Notes under the pieces: generated by a model
Seen by the model: the letters and a program-made list of their open reading frames with translations, nothing else
Told to the model about the DNA's origin: nothing
Database searches by the model: none
Translations under genes and position numbers: made by a program
Assembly: GCF_900108105.1 (NCBI RefSeq)
Contig: NZ_FNUR01000001.1
Span: forward strand, 434,001 to 498,000
Origin: Butyrivibrio sp. Su6
GTDB lineage: Bacteria > Bacillota > Clostridia > Lachnospirales > Lachnospiraceae
Length of the DNA: 64,000 nucleotides
Direction: 5' to 3'
Shown here: positions 19,685 through 51,961 of the stretch, one piece after another
How the letters are laid out: the number at the start of each line of letters is the position of its first letter
Position numbering within the stretch: the first letter of the stretch is position 1

Positions 19685-19990
19685 CCTCCAATTGATAGTC
19701 GTTGCAAAGAAAAATCCTTCGCAACATAATTTGTTGCGAAGGACGAAATAATCCGTGTTACCACCTTCATTCACGCTATGCTCACGCAATGCGCCTCAAT
19801 AAGTACGATTCAAAAATAATCTGAATGATACTCTACTGATGTAACGGTCAGTCCCCGTCTGAAACTAATATCTCACGGTAAAAAGAATTCGTTCCAGCAG
19901 CTCACGGAGGTATTCATCATCGCTCTTAACTTACGCTTCTCACCAACCAGCAATTCTCTGTTGTCAGATTTCGATTCTTACTTATTCCGG
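19685..19990 (-). promoter_or_regulatory. T-box riboswitch for tyrosine upstream of tyrS
   Basis: Reading on the minus strand from about 19990: a stem I with GGTTGGTGAGAAG, then a specifier loop with GAATACCTCC, in which TAC (19910-19912) is a tyrosine codon and fits the downstream gene. After a long stem region comes the T-box sequence GGTGGTAACACGG (19753-19765), whose bulge pairs with the tRNA acceptor end. The terminator follows (CCTTCGCAACA and TGTTGCGAAGG, 19716-19742) with T-run ATTTTTCTTT. Uncharged tRNA-Tyr should stabilise the antiterminator and turn on tyrS. Confidence 0.95.
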
Positions 19991-20021
19991 TCACAGCCTT
20001 TAATATTTAATTTCTTAACAA

Positions 20022-23370: not shown

Positions 23371-23444
23371 AAAAATATCCTCCTTTGCAGTTTTCCATTA
23401 CCACATCGGGGGATATTCAAAGTTTCAGATATTCCATTGATGTA

Positions 23445-23539
23445 GCAGCGGGATGCGAAACTTAAACCGCGGAAAAATCCTTCGTCCTGATGACAACTCC
23501 CTGTTCACCCGGCACTTAACGCTTAAATTTCTACTCTGC
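23445..23539 (-). promoter_or_regulatory. Tetrahydrofolate (THF-I) riboswitch upstream of folT
   Basis: On the minus strand the element begins GCAGAGTAG (23531-23539), then CGTTAAGTG, GGGTGAACAGGGAG, a hairpin with GACGAAGGA, CCGCGG, and GCATCCCGCTGC at the end (23445 onward). These are the conserved blocks of the THF riboswitch family in the right order, and the outer GCAG and CTGC can pair. It lies 75 bp before folT. The mode of expression control (terminator or site sequestration) was not resolved. Confidence 0.92.
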
Positions 23540-23593
23540 ATTTATTATTTGCCATTCATAATACATCATAACCTCAGTAAGGTCAAAGGTTTT

Positions 23594-31919: not shown

Positions 31920-32376
31920 GAATACTCTCCTTTTTCCATTTCATTATCAAAAAAATATGCCGACTACTGGAACAAGTAATAATACGCATAGTAACTCATA
32001 ATCATTATACTTTGTAATGCGATTATACATCACCGCTATATGGTTAATTTTTTCTTAATAAAGAATAAAGAAACGAAGTGATACTTTCTATATGCGTAAG
32101 TAATTGACTACGTACGCCACCATTGACTGAGCCTGAGGAGAACGCCCTGACCAAAGAGCCGACGGTGAGGATGATGGGAACAGTAGATATCTCGCACCGT
32201 CGGATTCAGCATTGTAGCGTTTTCCTCAGCCCCCGTCAACGGCAAGCACCTTCGGTGTGGCTAGTTTAAAGTGCCTCGCGCTCTGAATCCAGGAACAGTA
32301 GGGGTGGCTACTTTCAAGGATGTGCATGGCTATATGCTTGCCGCTCCCTATGTAATGAGAGCAGGGATGCTGTTTT

Positions 32377-32513
32377 GGGCATATAGTGCTTTTGAAAGCT
32401 TCCAGCCACCTCTGATTTTTACTATTTTGGGCATATAGCAGCTTTTTGCGAGGACAGCCACCCCTCATGAAGTTCAAATGGGCATATAGGCCGATTTCAA
32501 GACTCGGGCCACC
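32377..32513 (+). repeat. Three forward copies of a 34-base module
   Basis: Each copy is GGGCATATAG, exactly 18 variable bases, GCCACC: 32377-32410, 32429-32462 and 32480-32513. Spacing between copies is 18 and 17 bases. The variable part has little sequence in common between copies, but two of the three hold a short inverted repeat. The conserved ends TGGGC and GCCA can pair with one bulge. Confidence 0.85.
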
Positions 32514-32522
32514 CGTTAAAAA

Positions 32523-32670
32523 GGTGGCTGTGGCGGATAATTACCGTATATGCCCAATCGCCTGTGATAAAAAACATGGTGAGGGGTGGCTGCAAGCCTG
32601 GAATCAGGCTATGAGCCCAAAAAAGATTTTATTACGGGTGGCCAATCTAGTGAAAACTAGCTATATGCCC
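32523..32670 (-). repeat. Three reverse copies of the same module
   Basis: On the minus strand: 32523-32555 (17 variable bases, end GGGCATATAC), 32585-32618 (18, GGGCTCATAG) and 32637-32670 (18, GGGCATATAG). All end in GCCACC. Their variable parts form small hairpins such as CCTG-ATTC-CAGG and CTAG...CTAG. A looser seventh copy with 21 variable bases lies at 32303-32339. Confidence 0.82.
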
Positions 32671-32807
32671 AAAGTAATACAGTTTAGAAATCGACGGTGC
32701 GAGATATCTACCGTTCCCATCATCCTCACCGTCGGCAGGGCTGGTAGAGCGTTTTCCTCAGGTTCAGTCAATGGTGGCGTACCCAGCCAATATATTTCTT
32801 TTACATA

Positions 32808-38956: not shown

Positions 38957-39766
38957 TTAGTATGTGTTTCTTTCTTTTACCCCATATACAACCATCCTGT
39001 TATTACTGCCTGAATATTCGCAGGTACTTAGTATGATAATATCGCTTGTATCAGGAATATACATAATATCGTACATAGACTTTTCCATTGCTTTTGTATA
39101 CATTTCTTTTATTTTTTCCATGGTGATGCCGCTTAATGCTGCCTCTTCATAGTCTCCTCCGAAAACCTCATCATTATCAGCAAAATAAGCAGAAAAAACA
39201 TAATAGGTAATAACTTCTTTTTCTGTATATACAACAAACTCCTGATGTTCTTTGTAGTAATCTTCACTCTTATACTGAAGAAGGGGATGGAACATGCTAC
39301 CATCTTTTCTGTTGTGCCCATATACTACTGTGAGCAGATTATCAAATGCAGGGGTAAAAGAACTATCAGCAAATAAAGTACCAACACTTCCCACAGATTT
39401 ATCAAATCTATGATTCAGATAAAAACTGTTATCTGTCCCCTGCACAATGGGACCATCTATCTCACCATCGCAGGCGCTTATCCAGCCTACAATATCGGGA
39501 TTAATTTCCTTTAGTGCAGCAAAATCAATCGGGTTAAAAGCTTTATCATCACCCGATATTTCAACTGTGCTTATTGAGGCAGCACCTGATGATGGTGCTG
39601 CCCTATAAGCTACTTTCTTTATAGCTTCATTTTGAGTTCTGTCATTCTTATAACCGATAGCATATCTGATAAGCATACTACCGGTTACAAGCATTCCTGC
39701 AAGCAGCAAAAACAATACTACTTTCAGAATCTTTTCCAGACTGTTACTTTTCATAGGATTATCCAT
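38957..39766 (-). CDS. srtB: Class B sortase
   Basis: 269 residues with one N-terminal membrane helix (about 15-35) and an extracellular catalytic domain. The catalytic triad is visible: H151 in VVYGHNRKDG, C249 in LSTCEYS and R257 in NNRMVVYG. The INPDIVGWI and GPIVQGTDNSFYLNH segments are typical of class B enzymes. It should join the giant surface protein to the cell wall or polymerise it. The ATG follows directly on the stop codon of the giant gene, so the two are translationally coupled; it is probably dedicated to that substrate. Confidence 0.94.
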   Translation of the reverse strand: MDNPMKSNSLEKILKVVLFLLLAGMLVTGSMLIRYAIGYKNDRTQNEAIKKVAYRAAPSSGAASISTVEISGDDKAFNPIDFAALKEINPDIVGWISACDGEIDGPIVQGTDNSFYLNHRFDKSVGSVGTLFADSSFTPAFDNLLTVVYGHNRKDGSMFHPLLQYKSEDYYKEHQEFVVYTEKEVITYYVFSAYFADNDEVFGGDYEEAALSGITMEKIKEMYTKAMEKSMYDIMYIPDTSDIIILSTCEYSGSNNRMVVYGVKERNTY

Positions 39767-42700
39767 TTAATATTTCTTCTTTCGGATTCTTAGATAAGTC
39801 GCAAGTACAGCTGCAAATGCCAGCATAAACAAAAGGAACATCGCTGATAAGGTTCCAACAGGAGTGTCATCAGCTGTTCTGACTCCTGCCTTTTGACTGC
39901 CATCTATATGATTGTTCTGATCATCATCAACTATCTGTGCATCTGTATTTATCTTCTTCGCAGTAGATACAGGCGTGCTCTTATTATCCGATGATTCTTC
40001 CTTCCTGCTGTCGGAACTGTTATCCTCATCCTTATTGCTATCTTCAGACGAATTGGAAGAAGGCGCAGGTGTAGGATTTGGCGGAGTTGGCACAGGCAGT
40101 GGTGATGGTGTAGGCTCCGGCACAGGCGTCGGTGTTGGCATTGGTCCGGGAGTTGGCTCCGGAGTTGGTGTAGGTGTCGGTGCAGGAGTAGGCGTTGGGG
40201 TTGGATCTTGTTCAGGATCCGGTGTAGGCTCTGGATCCGGTTCAGGCTCTGGTGCCACGAATGAAACCTGAATAAGAGTCTGAACAGGCATCTCATCAAT
40301 GCTGCTTGCAAGAGTCACTACAACTGAACCGCTAAGAACAGTCACATGCTTAAAGGGACTGTTTTCATCTTCCAATAGAGGACTCCATGCATTAAACAGA
40401 TTCTCAGAATCTGCAGTAATATTGCCATCATCGTCCTTTGTTACAGCACCGGTATAAGGTACCTGATTTCCATTTTCATCTTCATATACATATCCGGAAA
40501 TCTCAACACTATGAGCGGGATTACTTAACATATCCTCATCAGTAAGCCACCAGCTGACAGTAAGAGAATCGGAATACGTGTAGCCATTATCCTCGTCTGG
40601 TCTGAACTCAACAGACATGGCTTCTTCAATATATGGTGTTTCATCATTAACATAATCGTAGGACTTGTCACCATCTTCTATAGCTGATTCATGTTCTTTA
40701 TCAACTACTACGAGCTTTTTGTATGTCTTAACTTCACCGCCGGTTACAGTGTTTCCGGAATCATCTGTAGAAGTTTCTGTCACGTTCTCAACCTTCAGAT
40801 AATGTGATCCACTGTCAAAAAGACTGTTCGTAAATATTACATGGCATGGAGCAGAATCTTTATCTGCAATTATTCCTGATGCAAATCCATAATATCCGCC
40901 CTTACCCGTATCTTCTTCAATATATGTAGCTTCGGTTGAACCAGTGATAGTAACACTTCTTCCTGTAGGACTATCAGAAACAGAATATATTACTTCATCA
41001 CTTCCATTATTAACCTTAGTTACTTCATACCCTACATATGATGGATTTTCAGTAACTTCAAAGGTGTATCTGGAATTGATTCCAACCAAAACTGCTACCT
41101 GTCCTGCTGCCACTCTCACAATTCCATCTGTAGATTCAAGGGCTGAGCTTCGTGTATAGGCACTCGTATCTGCAAAAGCATCATTCCTAAGCTCTGAGTC
41201 TGTAATTCCGGCCACATCAGATGCACTATACAGATAGTATTTACCATTAAACGGCACCTTATTTCCATCCGGCCTTACCAGAGACACTTCAAACTTAAAG
41301 CCGTAAGTTGTAGGATTTTCAGAAATGATCTTCTCAATAATGAGACTTCCGTCATTTTCCATTGCAGTATTGGTAATGTCTGTTGTATCACCTGTTCTTA
41401 CTGCAGTTGTCTCATAATAGTTTTTAAGTATGAAGCCATCACCGTAATCATAATCTGTATCTTCAGAGACTTTATAGACAATTTCCGTAGCACTTTGCGG
41501 CGCTCCGTTTCCATAAACATATCTTGGAAGTCCCTCAAATACATAGACCCAGGTATTGTCATCATCCCTTTGCTTTGGCGTATCAAGCATTATAGGATTT
41601 TCGCCATAGGGCTTAACGACTGAAACACCGCCTAAAACTTCGCTGTTAAAAGCACCAGAGTTAGTAACCACTTCCGTATCTTCAGTTACAAAGAGCCTTA
41701 TCATGGATGGTCTTATGCCGTGAGAATCAGACTCGTCTTCCCAGTGCTTTATAGCAGTAACATCTTTTGTAATAAGAGTATTTGTTATTACAGTTTTATA
41801 GGTATCTGTAGTCTCATCAAAAGAAGTTACATATCCGCTCTCATCTCCTGTTGTCTCTTGAATATACTCAGATGCTGCGGATACAAGGCTGTAACCAAGC
41901 GGAACATACGGTGTTCCAGTGGAATCAGTCTCTATAAACCTGTATTCATATTTAACAGGTGAACTGCCATTATAATCTTTGTAGAGAACAAGATCATCTA
42001 CAGAGCCCTTCCAGCTATTGCCTTCATTTAATTCAACTAAAGGCGCAGTATTTACATCTGCCCATGTAGTTTCATCAGCTGCTTTCCTCTGAAGCTTTGC
42101 AAATATGCTATCAGGCCTTGTCTTATACTTATTGTTGCCATCACTCCATTTCTTTTCAACAGATGCACTTCCATGAGGAGTGTTGATAATCTGCGTCTTA
42201 AGTTCCTCTGCGCCGCTGCTCTTTACATTTATCTTATCTACCTTGTCAAAAGAGCTGCCATTATAAACATAGTATTCTGTTGTAAACGAACTACCCTCTG
42301 TCTCAGAAATGTAGTAAACAATTGTCTTTCCATCTTTATTTACAAGTGGAAGATCTTCAAATGTGCTCTTCCAGTCAGGAGTACCTGTAAGAACCCTCTG
42401 CATAGCAACTGTTCCATGCTTAACAGGTAAAAGCGCATCCGGATTATCATCACCACTTGCAAAATTACCGGAATACAGATTTACAGTCACATTATTTTTA
42501 TCAGCTGTATTATTCGTGTTCCAGATTTTCTCAACAGTAAGCGGATTAGTTCTTGTAATAAGGAAGTTTGTTACACTACTTGTCTGCGCTGTGTCACTTC
42601 CACCATATACATAGCTGATGTTATCAGTAGCAGTAAATTCAGATGCCTCCTTACTCTTATCCCTTGTATAGGCATTAGGAGTCACAAGCTCAGCCAGTCT

Positions 42701-45700
42701 GTACTGGTATTTAACAGGACTGCTGCCATCTGAAAGTTCATACAGAGGAAGATTACTTACAGTTGCCTTCCAGCTTCCAGCCTGATTAACTACTTTCGCA
42801 CTCTGTCCCTCTACATTTTCCCAAGTGCCTCCTGCTCTTCTTTGAAGTGTCAGGCTTACGCTAGCAGGGCGAAGTCCATAAGCATTATTATCATCAGACC
42901 ATATCTTTGTTCCTGTGATACTTGTAAGAGGAGTATTTACAATCTTATAGGCAAAAGAGCTTGTTCCACTGCTCTTTGCTGCTGCCTTTGAAACCTTTGT
43001 AAAGCCTTCCTGAGACTCTATATAATAGGCAGTATCAAATGCAGAATTTGCTGTTTCCTCTACATAGTAAACAATCTCATTTCCGGTCTTATTGTATTTA
43101 GGAAGTCCATTAAATACATGTGTGTCATTACCGAAAATTGTAACTTCACATCCCGGAACCACAGAAAGTGTGCCCGTTGTCGAATCCGCACCTGTACTTA
43201 AATTCCTTGATAAAAGCTTTACTGTTACCTCTTCTATGTCAGAAGTGCTGTTTGTATTCCAGACCTTCTGAACTGTTAATGCCTCTGCATCAGTTCTTTT
43301 TATAAGATGGTTTGTTACAGAGCTCTTTTGCTGTGAATCAGAACTTCCATCATAGCTGTATCCGTAGTCATCTGTATCAGAAAATGCTGAAACCGATGTA
43401 TCTCTTGTATATGCATTAGGAGTAGATAGCTCAGCAAGTCTATACTGATACTTAACTGGACTTGTGCCATCTGATAGTGCATACAAAGGAAGACTGGCTA
43501 TACTTCCTGTCCAGCTATTTGCAGCATTTAATGTTACAGTTTTCCCGGTAATAGTAGTCCAGTCACCGCTCTCTGTTTTACTCTGAAGAGTCAGAACAAG
43601 ACTTGCAGGCCTTATTCCATATTTATTATTTTCATCATCCCAGACTTTGCTTCCTGTAACATTAGTAAGAGGAGTATTAACTACAACAACTCTGAAATCA
43701 TCTGTGATATCGCTTGATGTATATTTAAGCGCATCTGTTGCTGTTCCTGTAGGCCAGGTTTCTCCGGTGCCTGACAGGTATTGAGTTTTGAAATTGCCGG
43801 TTGTTGTCTCTTTTACATAGTATCTTATAAGCTTACCGTCTTTATTAAACTTAGGAAGATCAGCATACTCGTACTCTGCGCCGTTACTTAATGTTATCTC
43901 TGCGATATTTGATATCTGCGTAGGTGCAGCCGTGGACGGGTCACCTCCCGTATAGTTATTACTAAAAAGAGCTACCTTTACATTACTTATTGTTGCATCT
44001 GAAGGGGCTGCATTCCAACGCTTCAATACCCTGATCGACTTATCCATAGGTACAAGTGTATTAGTCACTGTAGTAGTAAAGTTTCCATTTGTATCTTTAC
44101 TTCTAGAATGAACTATAGAATATGACCCGCCGCTTGATTCCGGAAATGTGCCGGCAGTATCGGTACTACCTATTTTTGTTTCTACAACACGGTAGAGATA
44201 AGTATCACTCTCTCCAGTTCCATGGAATTTAGGAAGATTATTAAAGGTCTTACTCCATGTATCAGTGCCGGAAACAAGTTCCGAATTTGTTATTTCCTTT
44301 GTTGTTACATCTTCCCAAGTCGTTCCATTATCCTTTGAATTCTGGATTTTCACATAAATACGTGTTGGTCTAAGACCATATTTATCACTATCATCATCCC
44401 ACTCTTTATTAACAGTAAGACTGACAACAGCCCTTGATGTATCAAGCTGATTAACAAGCTTCTTAGTTGGGGATGTTCCCTTGATGCTTGTTATATCTGA
44501 TGGGTTGTATACCTGATAGTTACCTGCTGTTACAGTTGTACAATACCTATCACTATCTGTTTCTGTTGTGCCGTTTTTAGTCCATGTGGTAGTTTGAGCT
44601 TCATCAGCAGGCGAACTTACCTCAATAATTTTACCTGCCTTATCTACTATTCCAACTTCACGGATCCTGTACTCATAGTTTGCCCCACACGATCCATTGC
44701 TATTGGCAGTAACAGGCAGGCCGGTTAATGTTTTGGCCCACTTTGAAGATGAGCTAAGTGAATATGGACTATTATTATCATTATTATTGTACTTAGTCCA
44801 GTTTGAACTACCAGCAAGGCGATAATATACATCAAAAGTAATGGAACCTTCTCTCATTCCATAGTCGTTGCTGTAATCATCCCACATCTTTTGAATGCTA
44901 AAGGAACCCTTTAAAGAGTTCTTTAGACTACCAAGTGTAAGAATACTATCCGAGGCATTGTTACTATCCGAGGCATTGTTAGCCTTTGAATAAACTAAAT
45001 CCTTGACCGTTTTATAATTTGCCTTAACAAAATCTGAATTAAGTGTCTCTTTTACGTAATATGTATAAAGATTACCATTGACAGAGTAAATCGGAGCAAC
45101 GATAGGGTTACCATATTTATCCTTAAAGCTAATAGTATAAGTCCAGGTTGTTCCATCCTCTGAGGCAGTCTTTTTTATATTGTAATCAGAAGCTGTAAAA
45201 TTAATTGTATCCGGATTTTCCTTTCCTGACTGTGTATTTGCAATGGCATATACTTCAAAAGAAAGTGCATCCTGAGTATCTGATACTTTAGGAAGCATTT
45301 CTTTCCATGTTGTTCCATCAAAGTTTTTAGCTTCCCATACTTTTGTAAACTGTATCTTATCAAAGCCTGTTGGATTATAGGTATTCTTAAATGTCTCTGT
45401 CTTTAAATTAGCTTCAGATGTACTTGCAAGGCTGACTCCGGAATTAGCAAATGCAACTCCCACGTATCCATTTCCGCTTATGGCAGTATTTCCAGTGGTG
45501 GCTATTCCATCTCCACCGCCTATTAATGTTACCGCATATCCCGGCATATCATCAGTAAGCTCCACTGCATAATATGCATAGAGCTTTCCGCTCGGGGCAA
45601 AAATAGGATAGTTTTCCCAGGTGATTGTTTCCTGTTCAGAGGCATCTGCATTATATGCAATCTGCTTGGTATCAAGAAGTTCAAGTGCGTCGCTATCAAG

Positions 45701-48700
45701 ACCTGCAAAGCCAGCAGCTGCTGCTTTTGAAGATCCTTTATCTGCCTCATTAGCATCATCTGCATAGCTTCCGCTTGCATCTGTATGTCCATATCCATGG
45801 CCATCGGATTCCAGCTCTTTTCTATAGAGCCTGAAGGTTGCCTTTGCAACAACTTTCTGGTAAGTCTGCTTTTGTATATCCCAGTCTTTTATGATCTTAA
45901 ATGTACGCTTGTTTGTAGCTGCATTAAGTTTGTACTGATTGGTCAGATCCGTCGTATTATCAGAATAATGCGGAATCATGATCTCAGCCGGAAGTTCATT
46001 ATTTTCTCCCAAGGTGTTGTAAATAACTTCCCTTACCTTGTAGGTATACAGATACCCCAATTTGTCATACTTAGGGAACTCTGCATAAGTATCTACAGTA
46101 TCATCAGTCTTATAAGTACCAAATACATACATGGACTTAAGCTTATTCAAATTCTGTGGAGACTTAGATCCATCACCACTACTGATCTCAGCGACTGCAC
46201 CATTCCTATATGTTTCCATCTTTGCTTCCTGGTCCATTCCCGTAACATCAGGAACATTTTTGGAAGTATCATAGTCACTTACTCTGAATAGATAAATATA
46301 AGCCAGAGGAAGATTATCTACGAGAATTCCGTCCGGAACACCTACCCAAAGTTTTCTTCCTTCGACCTTTACGGTATCTGAAATACTTGTAAGGGTAAAA
46401 CTATCCTCCTTTGTAAAGTATTTACCATCAACTACTTTTTCATCCTTTGCAATGCCGTCTTTAACAAGGAGCTGCTTTTCACTGCCAACTGTAGCGATTT
46501 CTATAACCGCGTCATTATAGTCGTTATTAGCATCATTTCTTAATGGTACCTCATAATGTTCTGTTGTATATTTGGATGTGGCATTGTTAAAGGTTTCTGT
46601 TACATAGTAAGTGTATACATTACCATTGTCATCGGCAGCAGGAAGGCCGCTAAATATAGCTTTCTGGATAAACTTATTTCCAGCTTCAACATCTTCCCAT
46701 CTCTCTGTATAAGAACCTGTGTATGGAATAAGTGCACCATTTTCACCGCCGTCATAATACAGCGTATAATAAATATCAGGTCTTTCATTGCTCTTTGCAT
46801 GATCATGCCAGATAACATAGAAAGAAACATCGCCTCTTTCACCTGCAGCTTTATTTTTATATTCATAGCTCTCAGACATGAGCATGGTTTTCACATCACT
46901 GTATCCAAGATCATATGTGCCATCAATAAGCCCATAGGTTGGTGTGCTGCTGTCTTTTTCTACAACATATCCCGTAGTTGTAGTATCTTTTGTGGCATTT
47001 ATATTTAGCTCTGTCTTTACAACGCTTGCTGAATCAGGCTCATTCCCGTCTTCATCACATAAAGTTTCACTTGCCTGAGGATTTCCCGTGCATATGAACT
47101 CTTTTACGCTGTATATATAGTTATTTCCATTCTCATCATATGCAGGATAATACTTGTCGCTATTTTTAAATGAAACAGTAAGTGCATCACCGCTTGTAAG
47201 AGTTGTCTTTCCATCATCTGAATATGTAGGAATATCTATAAATGCGACTTCCTTTTCGGTATCATTAACTTCTCTGAAAAGAGCAACTCTAAGGAAATCA
47301 CCTCTTTTTCCAAGAACATTTGCAGAATCTTCCCATGTCTTCTTAAATGTAAAAGTTCTGCTTCCTACTCTTGTATTGGTGATCGTAAAGTTTGTACCTG
47401 TATCATTTCTGACAATACCGACTTTATAACCTGGTTTTACTGTATTACCGGCATCTTCAATAGCAGTTATGACTCCGCCTGTTATGGAATTATTTGAATA
47501 TGTAGGCTTTTCTACAGTTCTGCTATAACCGTCAATAAGGCTTATACTAAGGTGATTTTTAATAGCCTGAGCTGCATTTTCATCTGACCCTTCAGCCTTA
47601 AAATCATTGCCATCAACCCAGATGTAATTTTCATAGTCTCTGGCAGCTGACAAAGTCAGTTTATAAGGCTTTGAAGTATCTCCACCTTCATAAACCTGTG
47701 TAAATTCTCCGGCATCATCATAAGTACCAAAATAAACTGTGATATTTGATCTCTGTGATGTATCTGAATCATCCTTCCAGATCTTGCTAACGTCTATTCT
47801 TGTTTTGGACGTCTGGGAACCGGTATAGTTTCTAACTGACAGATCTATTCTCTTACCGGTAACAGTCTTGTCATATTCTTTTCCGTAATGGAAGCCTTCT
47901 TCTGTCGCTATATTCCCTTCAGTCATTGTATATACATACTGCTGTCCGTCTTCTGTGTAGGCAGGAACTATCAGGTCCTCTGTCTTCCAGGTCCAGTATG
48001 CACTTCCACTTGTTGGTGTGATTTTATTTATAGCAAAGCTATGTTCTTCATCAGTATCAGTTTCGTTATAATGAATTGTGAAAGTTCCGGAAGTTGCACT
48101 GGTTGAGTCAGGCTTTTGTAATATGACTGTGGCATAAACTGAGGCACTGCCACCATCTACTGCTCTATAAAGTGTTAAAGGCACATTTCCTGTCTTATCA
48201 TCTTCTGTTTCAATTCCCCAGCTGCCGCTCCAGGATTTAGTCATGGAAAGCTTTTTTGTTCCATAAAGCTTATTTACAATTGTTGCCTGGGCCGACTCGA
48301 CTCCATCTTCTACAGTTGCTTCATAGGTTGAGACCGCTTTATAGGTATAATCTCCAAGTGTATAGATTGCACTGTATTTGCCGGATGTATTATCATCAGC
48401 TTCCCAATCAGAGGTAAACTGCGCGTCCACGCTGCTTCCGGAAGTAACTGAGGACTCAACAACTCTGTATTCATATTTTTTACCTAGCTTGTCATATAAT
48501 TCCTGGGCAGCAAAAGATCCCGACACTTTCTTCTTGCTTGAAGAAAATCCCGAAAGAGTTTTGGTATCAACATCTACCCATCCTGTGCTTTCTTTTCTCT
48601 GAAGAGTAAATGTACAGTTAGAGCCCACATAGTCACTTATTGCTGATACATTCCAATGCTTGGTGACAGCAGGAGAAATCTTGGCATTTCTGACATTACA

Positions 48701-51700
48701 TACGCTTCCATTATTTAGGGCAACAGTATCAGAAGACTCTCCCGCAAAAGAGCCTTGTCCATTGTAATAAACTGTTTTATAAAGCTCCGACTTTGAAACT
48801 TCTGTCACATAATAATTATAGGTGTAACCCATTTCATCAAATTTGGGGAACTTTATGGCACTGCCTGCAAAGTCTTCAAATGAAAACGTTATCTCACTTG
48901 AATTTGCATGTTCCTGACCTAATGAAAATGAATACTGTTTTGCATTGTAAGTAACAGGAGCGCCATCTGAAAGGCTTCCGTTACTTGGATATCTCCACAA
49001 ATAGAATGTTATGCCTTTTGAAATTGCAAGTGCTCTTCTATCTATGCTGTCCTGATCGCTGTCACCATCGTCGCACCATATCTTCTTAAAGGTGAATGTG
49101 GCATCGCCTATGGCTGTGGCATATATCTTTTGACCCGGAAGGCACTTGTCAGTTTCAGTACTGTCAACGCCATTGTCATAAGTATATTTAAAGGCAGCAT
49201 CTGAAGTTGTCGTCATAACAGTATAGTAAAGGATCGCATCACCGCTGCTATAAAGCGGAAGCCCTGTAATACTGTAAGACCACACTGTCTTTCCTTCTGA
49301 ATCAGTAGTCTTTGTCCATTCAATTGAAAAACCTGATGTAACTTCTTCTACAGCATTGCTTCCCACTACTCTATATAGATGCATAGTTGTAGTAGCGTCA
49401 CTAAAAAGCGTATTTTGAGGAAGTGTTGGAACAGCGGCCTCTCCTGCTTCTCCAACACGCCAGGTTATTGTTCCTGTTATGCTGTTAGTAAATACAAGAC
49501 TTACTTTATCTTCGCCACTTTCAGATATGTTTAGATATCCGTCAGAATTTAAACCGCTTATCTGATAGTAAGCCTTCTTTCCATCATAAAATTCATCTGA
49601 AAGCTTGATGTACCAGTCATATTTGGTCGTTCCATCTGACATGTACATAGGAAGCTTGGAATAAGATATGCTCCAGCTAAATGGGCCACCAACTACCGTT
49701 GGAACATTTGATCCCGGTGATACTAAAATAGGGGAAGAGGCTGTTACTTTTTCATATGTATCACCATTTTTGTAATACAGCTCCACGGCAGCAGCTATTG
49801 TAGCCTCATTTCCATCAATTGATGTACTCGTTGTGAAAGGTCTTAGATCCGCATAGTTTCTGTTATCCTGCCAGTCCACGGTAAATAACGGATTTACAAG
49901 AGCCAAAATCTTATTTTCAATACTTATGGTTGACGTTGACCATGTAGCGTCATTTATATCCCTTTCAGGAGTAAGCACAAAATATGTGTCACTTCCTATA
50001 AGGCCTTTAGAAACAGAATATCCATCAGCGGTTTCAATCTGAATACCATAAAAGCCTGAAGGTATGGAATACTGTCCATTACCTTCAGGTGCTGCACCGC
50101 TTCCTTTATCTACATAAACAGGGATATCGGTAAAAGAAAAGTCAACAGAAGCTGTTGTATTGCCGCTTCCATCATCAATAATTCCATTTACAGTCTGCTC
50201 CTTGGAGGATATCAAAATAACTTCAGAAGACAGTTCAGAATCTTCCTTTTTTATATCTTTCCCTTCAATATTTCCGTAGAGCTTTAATGTGACCTTTGAC
50301 TCATTTCCAACTATAAGCGAAGCATCAGAAAAGACTACGTGAACATTCTGAGAAAATGTCTTTCCAGGTGCAAATTCAACATCATAGGTGGTCGGAGCTG
50401 CTTTTAAAACAGTAAATCCATATGGAGAAAAGCTGTCAGTTTCAAATTGTACATTTCCCTCAGTATCCACTTCCGTATCAATTATTTCTTTTTCATTTTC
50501 TTCTTTTACATGTATAAGCCTAAAATCGTCTGCTTTAAGACTATCTGTATCAACATTCTCAGGAGGCGTAATAGTAACCTTTACAGTATCATCTAGTTCA
50601 ATCTCTTCTCCGTCCAAAACTACAGAAATATCAACCGCATAAACAACTTCTCTCTCATTTTCTGCAAAGAGATCTTTTGCTTCATCCATTGATATTTCGG
50701 ATACTACAAGTTCTGCTCCTACAGGAAGAGTTCCTTCAACCTTAACTCCGCCATTTTCCAGAACCATGTACTCAAAGACTATCTCTTTCTCATTTATAAT
50801 AACTGAGATAACAGGAGCATCTGTATCTAAGATGTACTCATCAGGAAATACAGGTACATATTTATATTCTGCGCCTGCTTTTTCAGAATCGAACCTATCA
50901 AAAGAACTGTTTTCTTTATCCAGTTCCCATGTAATGCCTTCTATAGTTACGTCTTCCTCTACAGTAAGTGTTTGTTTTACAAGTTTATAAAAGCCTTCCT
51001 CGTCTTCAAATATTTCTTCTTCAGCTTCTATTTCAGTAAGGTCATTATCATCTATGGTGCTATCTAATGAGCTCTCATCACTATTTTCTAAATCTGAAAT
51101 ATCAGAAGCTGCATAGACTTTTAGAACAGGAAAAAGCCTGTTAAGCATTGCAGAATCCTGTCCTTCATCTGTGCCACTTGATTCATCGCCTTCATTGTTT
51201 ACATCTTCATTACTTTCTTCGTTCTCATCATTCTGAGACTCATCTATATCCTCATTGCTTAAATCACTTGCTTCTTCATCATCTGTCTGACCAGGTTCAA
51301 TTGCCTCATCCTTATTACCTTCAGTATCATCATTTGGATCCTCAGATGTATTCTCAGTTTCTGGATCTATTTCAGGAACGCTGTCTGTATTTACATCTTC
51401 AGTCTGCTGACTCTTTTCTTCACTATTTCCGTCATCTCCTGCAACGCTTCCTTCAGATGCACTGTCTGTGCTGGCTTCAGTACTTGCACTGTTTGCTGAT
51501 TCTTCATCCTCGATTTCTGAAGATGAAGCCGATGCACTCTCATCTACAGACATACCGCTGCTTGCAGCTGAAGATGCCTCAGTTGCTGACTTTTCCGTCT
51601 TTTCAACTCTTACCTTTATTTCCTGCTCTTCTTCATAAGACACAGTGACATTTAGTGCATCCGGGAAAGATAATTCATTTTCTTCAGCACCAAATTTAAG

Positions 51701-51862
51701 AGTCTGATGTAATACCTCTTCATCAAGCTCTTCAATCTTTATGATTTTCTTTTTTTCTTCTTTTGCTTCACCTTCAGCAAAAACCCTAAGGTCCACGCTG
51801 CTAAGAAAAAGCACTGCACTAAGCGTAATAGCAATTCCTCTTGATAATAGATTTCTTCTCAT
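39767..51862 (-). CDS. Giant Cna-B repeat surface protein, 4031 aa
   Basis: The start at 51862 has GAGGAAG upstream; an in-frame start 14 codons earlier has none. Order: signal peptide (MRRNLLSRGIAITLSAVLFL), an acidic Ser/Glu/Asp-rich stretch (about 110-250), N-terminal beta domains, then about 20 Cna-B-like units, each opening with a 'xVxKxWxDDxNxxGxRPxxI' type strand. A late unit (SLIIEKIISENPTTYGFKFE) resembles a different pilin-type domain. Then comes a Pro-Thr-Glu stalk (PTPTPAPTPTP and similar), a Ser/Asp/Asn linker, and a sorting signal: TADDTPVGTL, a hydrophobic helix and the tail RIRKKKY. The motif is not LPxTG but fits targets of class B sortases. It probably forms a long adhesive rod stabilised by isopeptide bonds. 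Confidence 0.93.
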   Translation of the reverse strand: MRRNLLSRGIAITLSAVLFLSSVDLRVFAEGEAKEEKKKIIKIEELDEEVLHQTLKFGAEENELSFPDALNVTVSYEEEQEIKVRVEKTEKSATEASSAASSGMSVDESASASSSEIEDEESANSASTEASTDSASEGSVAGDDGNSEEKSQQTEDVNTDSVPEIDPETENTSEDPNDDTEGNKDEAIEPGQTDDEEASDLSNEDIDESQNDENEESNEDVNNEGDESSGTDEGQDSAMLNRLFPVLKVYAASDISDLENSDESSLDSTIDDNDLTEIEAEEEIFEDEEGFYKLVKQTLTVEEDVTIEGITWELDKENSSFDRFDSEKAGAEYKYVPVFPDEYILDTDAPVISVIINEKEIVFEYMVLENGGVKVEGTLPVGAELVVSEISMDEAKDLFAENEREVVYAVDISVVLDGEEIELDDTVKVTITPPENVDTDSLKADDFRLIHVKEENEKEIIDTEVDTEGNVQFETDSFSPYGFTVLKAAPTTYDVEFAPGKTFSQNVHVVFSDASLIVGNESKVTLKLYGNIEGKDIKKEDSELSSEVILISSKEQTVNGIIDDGSGNTTASVDFSFTDIPVYVDKGSGAAPEGNGQYSIPSGFYGIQIETADGYSVSKGLIGSDTYFVLTPERDINDATWSTSTISIENKILALVNPLFTVDWQDNRNYADLRPFTTSTSIDGNEATIAAAVELYYKNGDTYEKVTASSPILVSPGSNVPTVVGGPFSWSISYSKLPMYMSDGTTKYDWYIKLSDEFYDGKKAYYQISGLNSDGYLNISESGEDKVSLVFTNSITGTITWRVGEAGEAAVPTLPQNTLFSDATTTMHLYRVVGSNAVEEVTSGFSIEWTKTTDSEGKTVWSYSITGLPLYSSGDAILYYTVMTTTSDAAFKYTYDNGVDSTETDKCLPGQKIYATAIGDATFTFKKIWCDDGDSDQDSIDRRALAISKGITFYLWRYPSNGSLSDGAPVTYNAKQYSFSLGQEHANSSEITFSFEDFAGSAIKFPKFDEMGYTYNYYVTEVSKSELYKTVYYNGQGSFAGESSDTVALNNGSVCNVRNAKISPAVTKHWNVSAISDYVGSNCTFTLQRKESTGWVDVDTKTLSGFSSSKKKVSGSFAAQELYDKLGKKYEYRVVESSVTSGSSVDAQFTSDWEADDNTSGKYSAIYTLGDYTYKAVSTYEATVEDGVESAQATIVNKLYGTKKLSMTKSWSGSWGIETEDDKTGNVPLTLYRAVDGGSASVYATVILQKPDSTSATSGTFTIHYNETDTDEEHSFAINKITPTSGSAYWTWKTEDLIVPAYTEDGQQYVYTMTEGNIATEEGFHYGKEYDKTVTGKRIDLSVRNYTGSQTSKTRIDVSKIWKDDSDTSQRSNITVYFGTYDDAGEFTQVYEGGDTSKPYKLTLSAARDYENYIWVDGNDFKAEGSDENAAQAIKNHLSISLIDGYSRTVEKPTYSNNSITGGVITAIEDAGNTVKPGYKVGIVRNDTGTNFTITNTRVGSRTFTFKKTWEDSANVLGKRGDFLRVALFREVNDTEKEVAFIDIPTYSDDGKTTLTSGDALTVSFKNSDKYYPAYDENGNNYIYSVKEFICTGNPQASETLCDEDGNEPDSASVVKTELNINATKDTTTTGYVVEKDSSTPTYGLIDGTYDLGYSDVKTMLMSESYEYKNKAAGERGDVSFYVIWHDHAKSNERPDIYYTLYYDGGENGALIPYTGSYTERWEDVEAGNKFIQKAIFSGLPAADDNGNVYTYYVTETFNNATSKYTTEHYEVPLRNDANNDYNDAVIEIATVGSEKQLLVKDGIAKDEKVVDGKYFTKEDSFTLTSISDTVKVEGRKLWVGVPDGILVDNLPLAYIYLFRVSDYDTSKNVPDVTGMDQEAKMETYRNGAVAEISSGDGSKSPQNLNKLKSMYVFGTYKTDDTVDTYAEFPKYDKLGYLYTYKVREVIYNTLGENNELPAEIMIPHYSDNTTDLTNQYKLNAATNKRTFKIIKDWDIQKQTYQKVVAKATFRLYRKELESDGHGYGHTDASGSYADDANEADKGSSKAAAAGFAGLDSDALELLDTKQIAYNADASEQETITWENYPIFAPSGKLYAYYAVELTDDMPGYAVTLIGGGDGIATTGNTAISGNGYVGVAFANSGVSLASTSEANLKTETFKNTYNPTGFDKIQFTKVWEAKNFDGTTWKEMLPKVSDTQDALSFEVYAIANTQSGKENPDTINFTASDYNIKKTASEDGTTWTYTISFKDKYGNPIVAPIYSVNGNLYTYYVKETLNSDFVKANYKTVKDLVYSKANNASDSNNASDSILTLGSLKNSLKGSFSIQKMWDDYSNDYGMREGSITFDVYYRLAGSSNWTKYNNNDNNSPYSLSSSSKWAKTLTGLPVTANSNGSCGANYEYRIREVGIVDKAGKIIEVSSPADEAQTTTWTKNGTTETDSDRYCTTVTAGNYQVYNPSDITSIKGTSPTKKLVNQLDTSRAVVSLTVNKEWDDDSDKYGLRPTRIYVKIQNSKDNGTTWEDVTTKEITNSELVSGTDTWSKTFNNLPKFHGTGESDTYLYRVVETKIGSTDTAGTFPESSGGSYSIVHSRSKDTNGNFTTTVTNTLVPMDKSIRVLKRWNAAPSDATISNVKVALFSNNYTGGDPSTAAPTQISNIAEITLSNGAEYEYADLPKFNKDGKLIRYYVKETTTGNFKTQYLSGTGETWPTGTATDALKYTSSDITDDFRVVVVNTPLTNVTGSKVWDDENNKYGIRPASLVLTLQSKTESGDWTTITGKTVTLNAANSWTGSIASLPLYALSDGTSPVKYQYRLAELSTPNAYTRDTSVSAFSDTDDYGYSYDGSSDSQQKSSVTNHLIKRTDAEALTVQKVWNTNSTSDIEEVTVKLLSRNLSTGADSTTGTLSVVPGCEVTIFGNDTHVFNGLPKYNKTGNEIVYYVEETANSAFDTAYYIESQEGFTKVSKAAAKSSGTSSFAYKIVNTPLTSITGTKIWSDDNNAYGLRPASVSLTLQRRAGGTWENVEGQSAKVVNQAGSWKATVSNLPLYELSDGSSPVKYQYRLAELVTPNAYTRDKSKEASEFTATDNISYVYGGSDTAQTSSVTNFLITRTNPLTVEKIWNTNNTADKNNVTVNLYSGNFASGDDNPDALLPVKHGTVAMQRVLTGTPDWKSTFEDLPLVNKDGKTIVYYISETEGSSFTTEYYVYNGSSFDKVDKINVKSSGAEELKTQIINTPHGSASVEKKWSDGNNKYKTRPDSIFAKLQRKAADETTWADVNTAPLVELNEGNSWKGSVDDLVLYKDYNGSSPVKYEYRFIETDSTGTPYVPLGYSLVSAASEYIQETTGDESGYVTSFDETTDTYKTVITNTLITKDVTAIKHWEDESDSHGIRPSMIRLFVTEDTEVVTNSGAFNSEVLGGVSVVKPYGENPIMLDTPKQRDDDNTWVYVFEGLPRYVYGNGAPQSATEIVYKVSEDTDYDYGDGFILKNYYETTAVRTGDTTDITNTAMENDGSLIIEKIISENPTTYGFKFEVSLVRPDGNKVPFNGKYYLYSASDVAGITDSELRNDAFADTSAYTRSSALESTDGIVRVAAGQVAVLVGINSRYTFEVTENPSYVGYEVTKVNNGSDEVIYSVSDSPTGRSVTITGSTEATYIEEDTGKGGYYGFASGIIADKDSAPCHVIFTNSLFDSGSHYLKVENVTETSTDDSGNTVTGGEVKTYKKLVVVDKEHESAIEDGDKSYDYVNDETPYIEEAMSVEFRPDEDNGYTYSDSLTVSWWLTDEDMLSNPAHSVEISGYVYEDENGNQVPYTGAVTKDDDGNITADSENLFNAWSPLLEDENSPFKHVTVLSGSVVVTLASSIDEMPVQTLIQVSFVAPEPEPDPEPTPDPEQDPTPTPTPAPTPTPTPEPTPGPMPTPTPVPEPTPSPLPVPTPPNPTPAPSSNSSEDSNKDEDNSSDSRKEESSDNKSTPVSTAKKINTDAQIVDDDQNNHIDGSQKAGVRTADDTPVGTLSAMFLLFMLAFAAVLATYLRIRKKKY
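40075..40256 (-). repeat. Proline-rich stalk of the giant surface protein
   Basis: Low-complexity coding repeat of Pro-Thr, Pro-Glu and Pro-Asp pairs (for example PTPTPAPTPTPTPEPTPGP) just before the sorting signal. It is a typical wall-spanning stalk that keeps the adhesive part away from the peptidoglycan. The DNA repeat is imperfect GGTGTAGG/GGAGTTGG-like on the plus strand. Confidence 0.9.
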
Positions 51863-51961
51863 AAGCACTTCCTCATAAAAAACAAAAAGCCATAGAAAAC
51901 ACACCTACTCCCGTATGCTTTCTATGAGCAATAAAAATCTTGTAAAATAAGCGCGACTGCG

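Follow-up and report, generated by a model that had tools for sequence, protein, structure and literature searches.

We observed that a palindrome-built element occupies positions 32103-32791 of the window, by which we mean the whole 64,000-nucleotide stretch of DNA analysed here (G000:C19:434001-498000, G000 being the 3.70-Mb source genome, that of Butyrivibrio sp. Su6). This is probably a non-autonomous foldback-type (MITE-like) insertion element, with a ~190-nt module, which we call T, forming its ends. T could not be matched to any described family. An initial annotation, made from the sequence alone, had raised the possibility of an undescribed non-autonomous element, and this was upheld: there are ~40 dispersed non-coding copies, sites are empty in sister genomes, T has no match in Rfam at gathering or loose thresholds, and no published description of T or of the element was found in the open-access literature (titles and abstracts).

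The element is enclosed by imperfect inverted arms with their own hairpins, as the initial annotation had described. The arm pair 32158-32216 / 32678-32736 is 88% complementary over 59 nt and the pair 32103-32148 / 32746-32791 is 87% complementary over 46 nt, and either arm contains an internal hairpin (CGACGGTG...CACCGTCG). Folding was far better than in shuffles on either strand, with z-scores of -19.6 and -16.4. The element contains no long ORF, in agreement with the earlier view that no protein is encoded, and a decayed gene was rejected because no ORF of note lies within it. Between the arms are seven ~34-nt modules, and their coordinates bear out the reported three rightward and four leftward orientations. 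From left to right, these are AAGCATATAG-N21-GCCACC at 32303-32339 (-), M6 (GGGCATATAG-N18-GCCACC) at 32377-32410 (+), M5 (N18) at 32429-32462 (+), M4 (N18) at 32480-32513 (+), M3 (GGGCATATAC-N17-GCCACC) at 32523-32555 (-), M2 (GGGCTCATAG-N18-GCCACC) at 32585-32618 (-) and M1 (N18) at 32637-32670 (-), of which types M6, M5, M4 and M1 are also present in other copies. The proposed module motif, GGGCATATAG-N-GCCACC, is thus exact in four modules and carries one to three changes in the remaining three (AAGCATATAG, GGGCATATAC, GGGCTCATAG); the exact pattern occurs four times in the window, compared to 0.00 expected from shuffled windows. The variable part was rightly called constant in length, at 18 nt in five modules, 17 in M3 and 21 in the leftmost module. 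Where two modules meet head to head the sequence is GCCACC-N9-GGTGGC, which corrects the reported spacing of eight.

The two ends of the element are unequal. At the left is a full T module (32115-32301, +; covariance model match of 147.5 bits, E 1.5e-35, with covariation assessed on 39 T's), made up of the modelled part at 32115-32262 and a further stretch that reaches the border GAACAGTAG (32293-32301). The right end (32691-32779, -) is the inverted repeat of T without its inner half, with a weak model match of 57.7 bits over 32640-32779. Beyond T, the outer left border (TATATGCGTAAGTAATTGACTACG, 32090-32114, no strand assigned) is a recurrent outer module, and the same outer types are found at many copies; the outer right border (GTACCCAGCCAATATATT, 32780-32797, likewise unstranded) is common to a T border of Butyrivibrio sp. 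AE2015 in L092. Elsewhere in the window there is a T-box leader at 19736-20003 (-) and a THF riboswitch at 23444-23540 (-), both exceeding Rfam gathering scores, and a gene for a 4045-aa repetitive surface protein at 39767-51904 (-) that adjoins a sortase-like gene at 38957-39766 (-).

In G000 the window element matches ~36-40 places, non-coding copies of 0.5-1.5 kb that are 80-90% identical to each other. Nineteen copies are bounded at both ends (0.69-1.54 kb), and none of these contains a long ORF. The search for further occurrences with preserved spacing, whose absence the initial annotation would have taken as refutation, gave 74 exact module patterns in the genome and none for the reversed control pattern; although 10-30 variable bases were permitted, the number is 18 in 73 of these patterns. 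From copy to copy, types M1-M6 keep both their order and their variable part, so the variable parts are type-specific rather than free: they are unlike in sequence between module types, as first noted, and conserved across copies within each type. Reduced copies are often one module short in each arm (e.g. L057, L058, L067), which suggests that the balance between arms is maintained. Other copies hold further array classes (GTAGGATAA-N20-TTATCCTAC, CATGACCTA-N20-TAGGTCATG and GGGTAAA-N18-TTTACCC). Three relatives of G000 have comparable element loads. Many G000 contigs end inside T-elements (C2, C3, C6, C7, C12, C13, C19, C22, C23), so that the true copy number is uncertain, and such ends help to explain the fragmented assemblies in the genus. 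No autonomous copy was found in G000. IS30 fragments within elements of B. proteoclasticus P18 and AE2015 (L121, L031, L161) seem to have entered the arrays at a later time.

We mapped G000 flank pairs in three relatives: AE2015 (G061, to which locus L073 belongs), P18 (G012) and the MAG RGIG9232 (G062). This strain comparison, also advised at the outset, demonstrated insertion: at six sites, sister genomes are without the element. L041, L045, L063, L067 and L062 are unoccupied in at least one of AE2015, P18 and RGIG9232, and the flanks of unoccupied sites are ~92-96% identical in the nearest genomes. In AE2015 and P18 the outer flank of L061 adjoins that of L050, so a 10.9-kb segment of G000 (G000:C11:24470-35370; L174:1470-12370) with T at either end is one insertion. 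Its cargo is presumably a sugar-use gene cluster, with a two-component system, two ABC permeases, a solute-binding protein and sugar-acting enzymes, functions that we judged from the sequences. Of 56 element ends, 41 are located at gene 3' ends. No target-site duplication was seen at the six unoccupied sites, where borders are blurred by turnover of the flanking terminators, and this counts against an insertion element. One site has a clean junction, in a terminator T-tract (L174 versus L175), and in other copies the inserted DNA overshoots the T borders by ~25-240 bp, taking in terminator-like outer hairpins. At the window's own site AE2015 has a scar, in which the outer left border TATATGCGTAAGTAATTGACTACG is kept and ...ATTGACTACGCACGCCACCA, on the left, runs directly into GCCAAT...; the element's right border is found on a separate contig, together with a T module and next to a sortase gene. 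The 307-aa gene, tried as a route to the window's unoccupied allele, was not found in P18. A gene segment between two T modules is apparently inverted between L119 (AE2015) and L059 (G000).

The 80-90% identity among copies does not demonstrate recent activity and we count it against a mobile element. Together with the lack of internal genes and the occurrence of truncated and half-T forms, it would also suit relics of dead T-bearing ISs, whose genes were lost long ago and whose inert repeats are kept alike by recombination. We consider this very improbable, given six unoccupied alleles despite the high flank identity in the nearest genomes, and given how strongly structure, promoter sequence and loop-border identity are maintained. 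A BIME/REP-like intergenic palindrome mosaic, spread by gene conversion or recombination rather than transposition and with T as a shared palindrome also captured by ISs, would account for the modular mosaic structure, the nested outer hairpins, the position of most ends at gene 3' ends, the T-linked rearrangement of L119 versus L059 and, again, the identity of the copies. It is nevertheless a decidedly unlikely explanation: the order T, modules, inverted T is fixed in the copies, entire units are present or absent between genomes, REPs are much shorter, and genes for Y1 transposases, the RAYT-like candidates, show no enrichment, G000 having one and genomes without T matches having them too. 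This sole Y1 (IS200-like) gene of G000 is at C12:174284-174652, and P18 has a dozen matches.

Next to its role at element ends, T has a wide distribution of its own. We scanned named genomes with a 26-bp T pattern and separately searched with a covariance model for T. The pattern scan placed T in Butyrivibrio, Ruminococcus, Eubacterium and other Clostridia among the matches listed; matches in Amycolatopsis, Nocardiopsis, Prevotella, Nitrospirota and similar were dropped as chance matches. By the covariance model, T is present in 26 of the 79 Butyrivibrio genomes (39 matches in G000, 38 in G067, 36 in G012 and 27 in G091) and in 18 of 393 genomes of the class, equal to 18 of 219 sampled genera with our own genome counted. 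Blastn of T against plasmids and phages gave no match, and a scan of viral contigs gave eight matches, with a real T in only two (L165, L166).

T is also associated with several ISs. In G074, a 1.93-kb IS that encodes an IS30 transposase (NF033563 above cut-off) contains T in identical copies. Numerous other genomes have T in antisense orientation directly at the stop codon of a transposase gene, which is IS6/IS240-like (Pfam DDE_Tnp_IS240 above cut-off, IS6 equivalog below cut-off) or, in G264, of the IS3 family. Within these ISs T is internal and not part of their terminal repeats. G000 has no IS30 gene and its single IS6-like element is without T, so that no mobilising enzyme was found there, a point against the insertion element that we favour; IS6-like relatives without T, including the G000 copy, have a different folded sequence at T's place. 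In L235, L237, L245 and L248, an unrelated folded sequence (GGAGCGGAACCGTTGTCAAGG..., fold z -4.6) lies just 3' of the transposase stop codon. IS21, IS110, IS200 and IS256 genes near T may be chance neighbours and were left uncounted because they do not share the stop-codon geometry. A conserved folded module that is absent from Rfam rides on several unrelated transposon families.

The branched fold of T was assessed on 39 diverse T's, over two outer helices and the main stem. In these helices 93.7% of cells are paired, compared to 76.1% in shuffles and 32-46% when the helices are slid; double-change cells number 151, as against a shuffled value of 39.5, and changes on both sides are seen in 19 of 24 pairs. 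By our own count, only 7 of ~874 paired cells are wobble (G-U) pairs. Structured RNAs usually have far more of these, and the near-absence of G-U looks more like DNA than RNA. The pattern looks like the product of DNA pairing or arm-to-arm correction more than of selection on an RNA. The T stem also contains a predicted outward sigma-A-like promoter, whose -35/-10 spacing is exactly 17 bp in 42 of 56 T's. The window's candidate is at 32211-32239 (-), with -10 TACAAT (complement of 32211-32216) and -35 TTGACG (complement of 32234-32239) at the same spacing of 17 bp. Lastly, the 12-mer of the P3 loop is on average identical to its own T 3' border at 10.95 of 12 positions, compared to 8.90 ± 0.14 for permuted borders, and loop and border form direct repeats. 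The window's loop copy of the border sequence (GGGAACAGTAG) is at 32177-32187 (+). Half-T copies stop at the first of the two repeats, consistent with ends generated by recombination between loop and border.

These features could alternatively mean that T is a functional non-coding RNA gene. A short RNA would then start just before the P3 hairpin, the P3 loop would be complementary to one strand at the T 3' border and guide a transposase or nuclease in the manner of bridge or seek RNAs, and the window element would be the carrier of two outward RNA genes. The conserved promoter inside T, the covarying fold, the loop-border identity held while both vary between T's, and the position of T at the ends of transposase genes all speak for this. 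We still find it fairly unlikely, in view of the scarcity of wobble pairs. Furthermore, only part of the T fold would be included in the promoter's RNA, since its -35 and -10 elements are both inside the stem, and the window copy's right end has no promoter -35 region because its inner half is lost. The transposases associated with T are of DDE types, which are not known to be RNA-guided.

The interior arrays are regularly spaced. Across genomes, the modules are 51-53, 63-64 or 72-75 bp apart, though the motif differs by genome, and in the class 1 array the distances are 52 (23 times), 63 (10 times), 51 (6 times), 53 (once) and 41 bp (once). Spacings of ~52, 63 and 74 bp correspond to five, six and seven whole turns of B-DNA. 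The Rayleigh test gives p ~1e-5 at 10.5 bp, with data that are partly dependent, motifs picked by eye and an equally good fit at 11 bp; repeats of Ruminococcus and RUI321 fit the helical period less well. The pattern suggests a helical-turn ruler, with proteins that may sit on one face of the duplex DNA. RNA processing of the modules is disfavoured because their periods follow whole helical turns, and a common RNA fold was rejected, with mini-hairpins at different positions in each module type. The structured RNA array suggested in the initial annotation is therefore not favoured, given these periods and an end structure that covaries almost without G-U. Its other suggestion, a likeness to integron attC arrays, is not supported. 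Conserved outer bases around a variable centre do recall attC, yet we regard such an array as scarcely credible: no gene cassettes lie between the modules, which form opposed arms in both orientations and are spaced in helical turns, and the ends are T, a different conserved structure.

For the foldback-type insertion element that we favour, we propose that a transposase or recombinase supplied in trans would recognise T, perhaps in hairpin form where the DNA is single-stranded or extruded. It would move whatever DNA is flanked by two inverted T's, with most landings downstream of genes. A protein of the host or of the element may bind the phased modules along one DNA face, which would help to keep the palindrome arms paired or protected, or would shield the long palindrome. 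Losses would result from recombination or slippage, either between the arms or between modules, and the outer terminators and outward promoters might insulate the element. Going further, and tentatively, T could represent a class of clostridial transposon accessory modules that is new: a hairpin with its own promoter, carried by unrelated ISs, with loop and border matched through mutual recognition (as DNA or RNA), where an inverted pair suffices for mobility and phased arrays are a protein scaffold. Much of the intergenic mosaic in some rumen Butyrivibrio genomes is probably one mobile palindrome family capable of carrying genes. The helical phasing of arrays that differ in sequence by genome leads to the testable prediction of a DNA-binding protein.

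Among known systems, the element resembles eukaryotic foldback elements and bacterial MITEs in the way it works. The likeness to attC is in the conserved outer bases and variable centre; here orientations are opposed, R and L boxes with cassettes between sites were not found, the module and end sequences differ, and there are no genes between. IS110/IS1111 elements encode a seekRNA or bridge RNA, a structured non-coding part of the IS whose loop matches a DNA border (PMC11187229); in contrast, the enzymes associated with T are DDE types, its loop and border are direct repeats, and its covariation is DNA-like. REP/BIME sequences are likewise intergenic palindrome mosaics at gene 3' ends. The combination of 20-40 nt palindromes and a Y1/RAYT transposase was not found here: T is ~190 nt long and its fold is fixed, gain or loss concerns complete units, T is present inside ISs, and Y1 genes are no commoner in the T-rich G000 than in T-free genomes.

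Bacterial MITEs such as MITEAba12 are short, non-coding, multicopy intergenic elements with inverted ends (PMC6382973). The window element shares terminal inverted repeats and a short, non-coding, multicopy, intergenic nature with them, but it is larger, its inverted ends are at least 200 bp with internal structure, no target duplication was seen, and no cognate IS with the same termini was found, T being internal in ISs. Eukaryotic foldback elements (FB/TU, e.g. Tetris of Drosophila virilis) have inverted ends of tandem sub-repeats, little or no coding capacity and a link to rearrangement (PMC4079207). The window element has the same long inverted ends made of sub-repeats, folding back on themselves, with scant coding, and one apparently inverted segment between T's and one scar may reflect rearrangement. 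It differs from foldback elements in being bacterial, in having sub-repeats phased to helical turns, and in carrying a promoter-bearing end module that is common to unrelated ISs.
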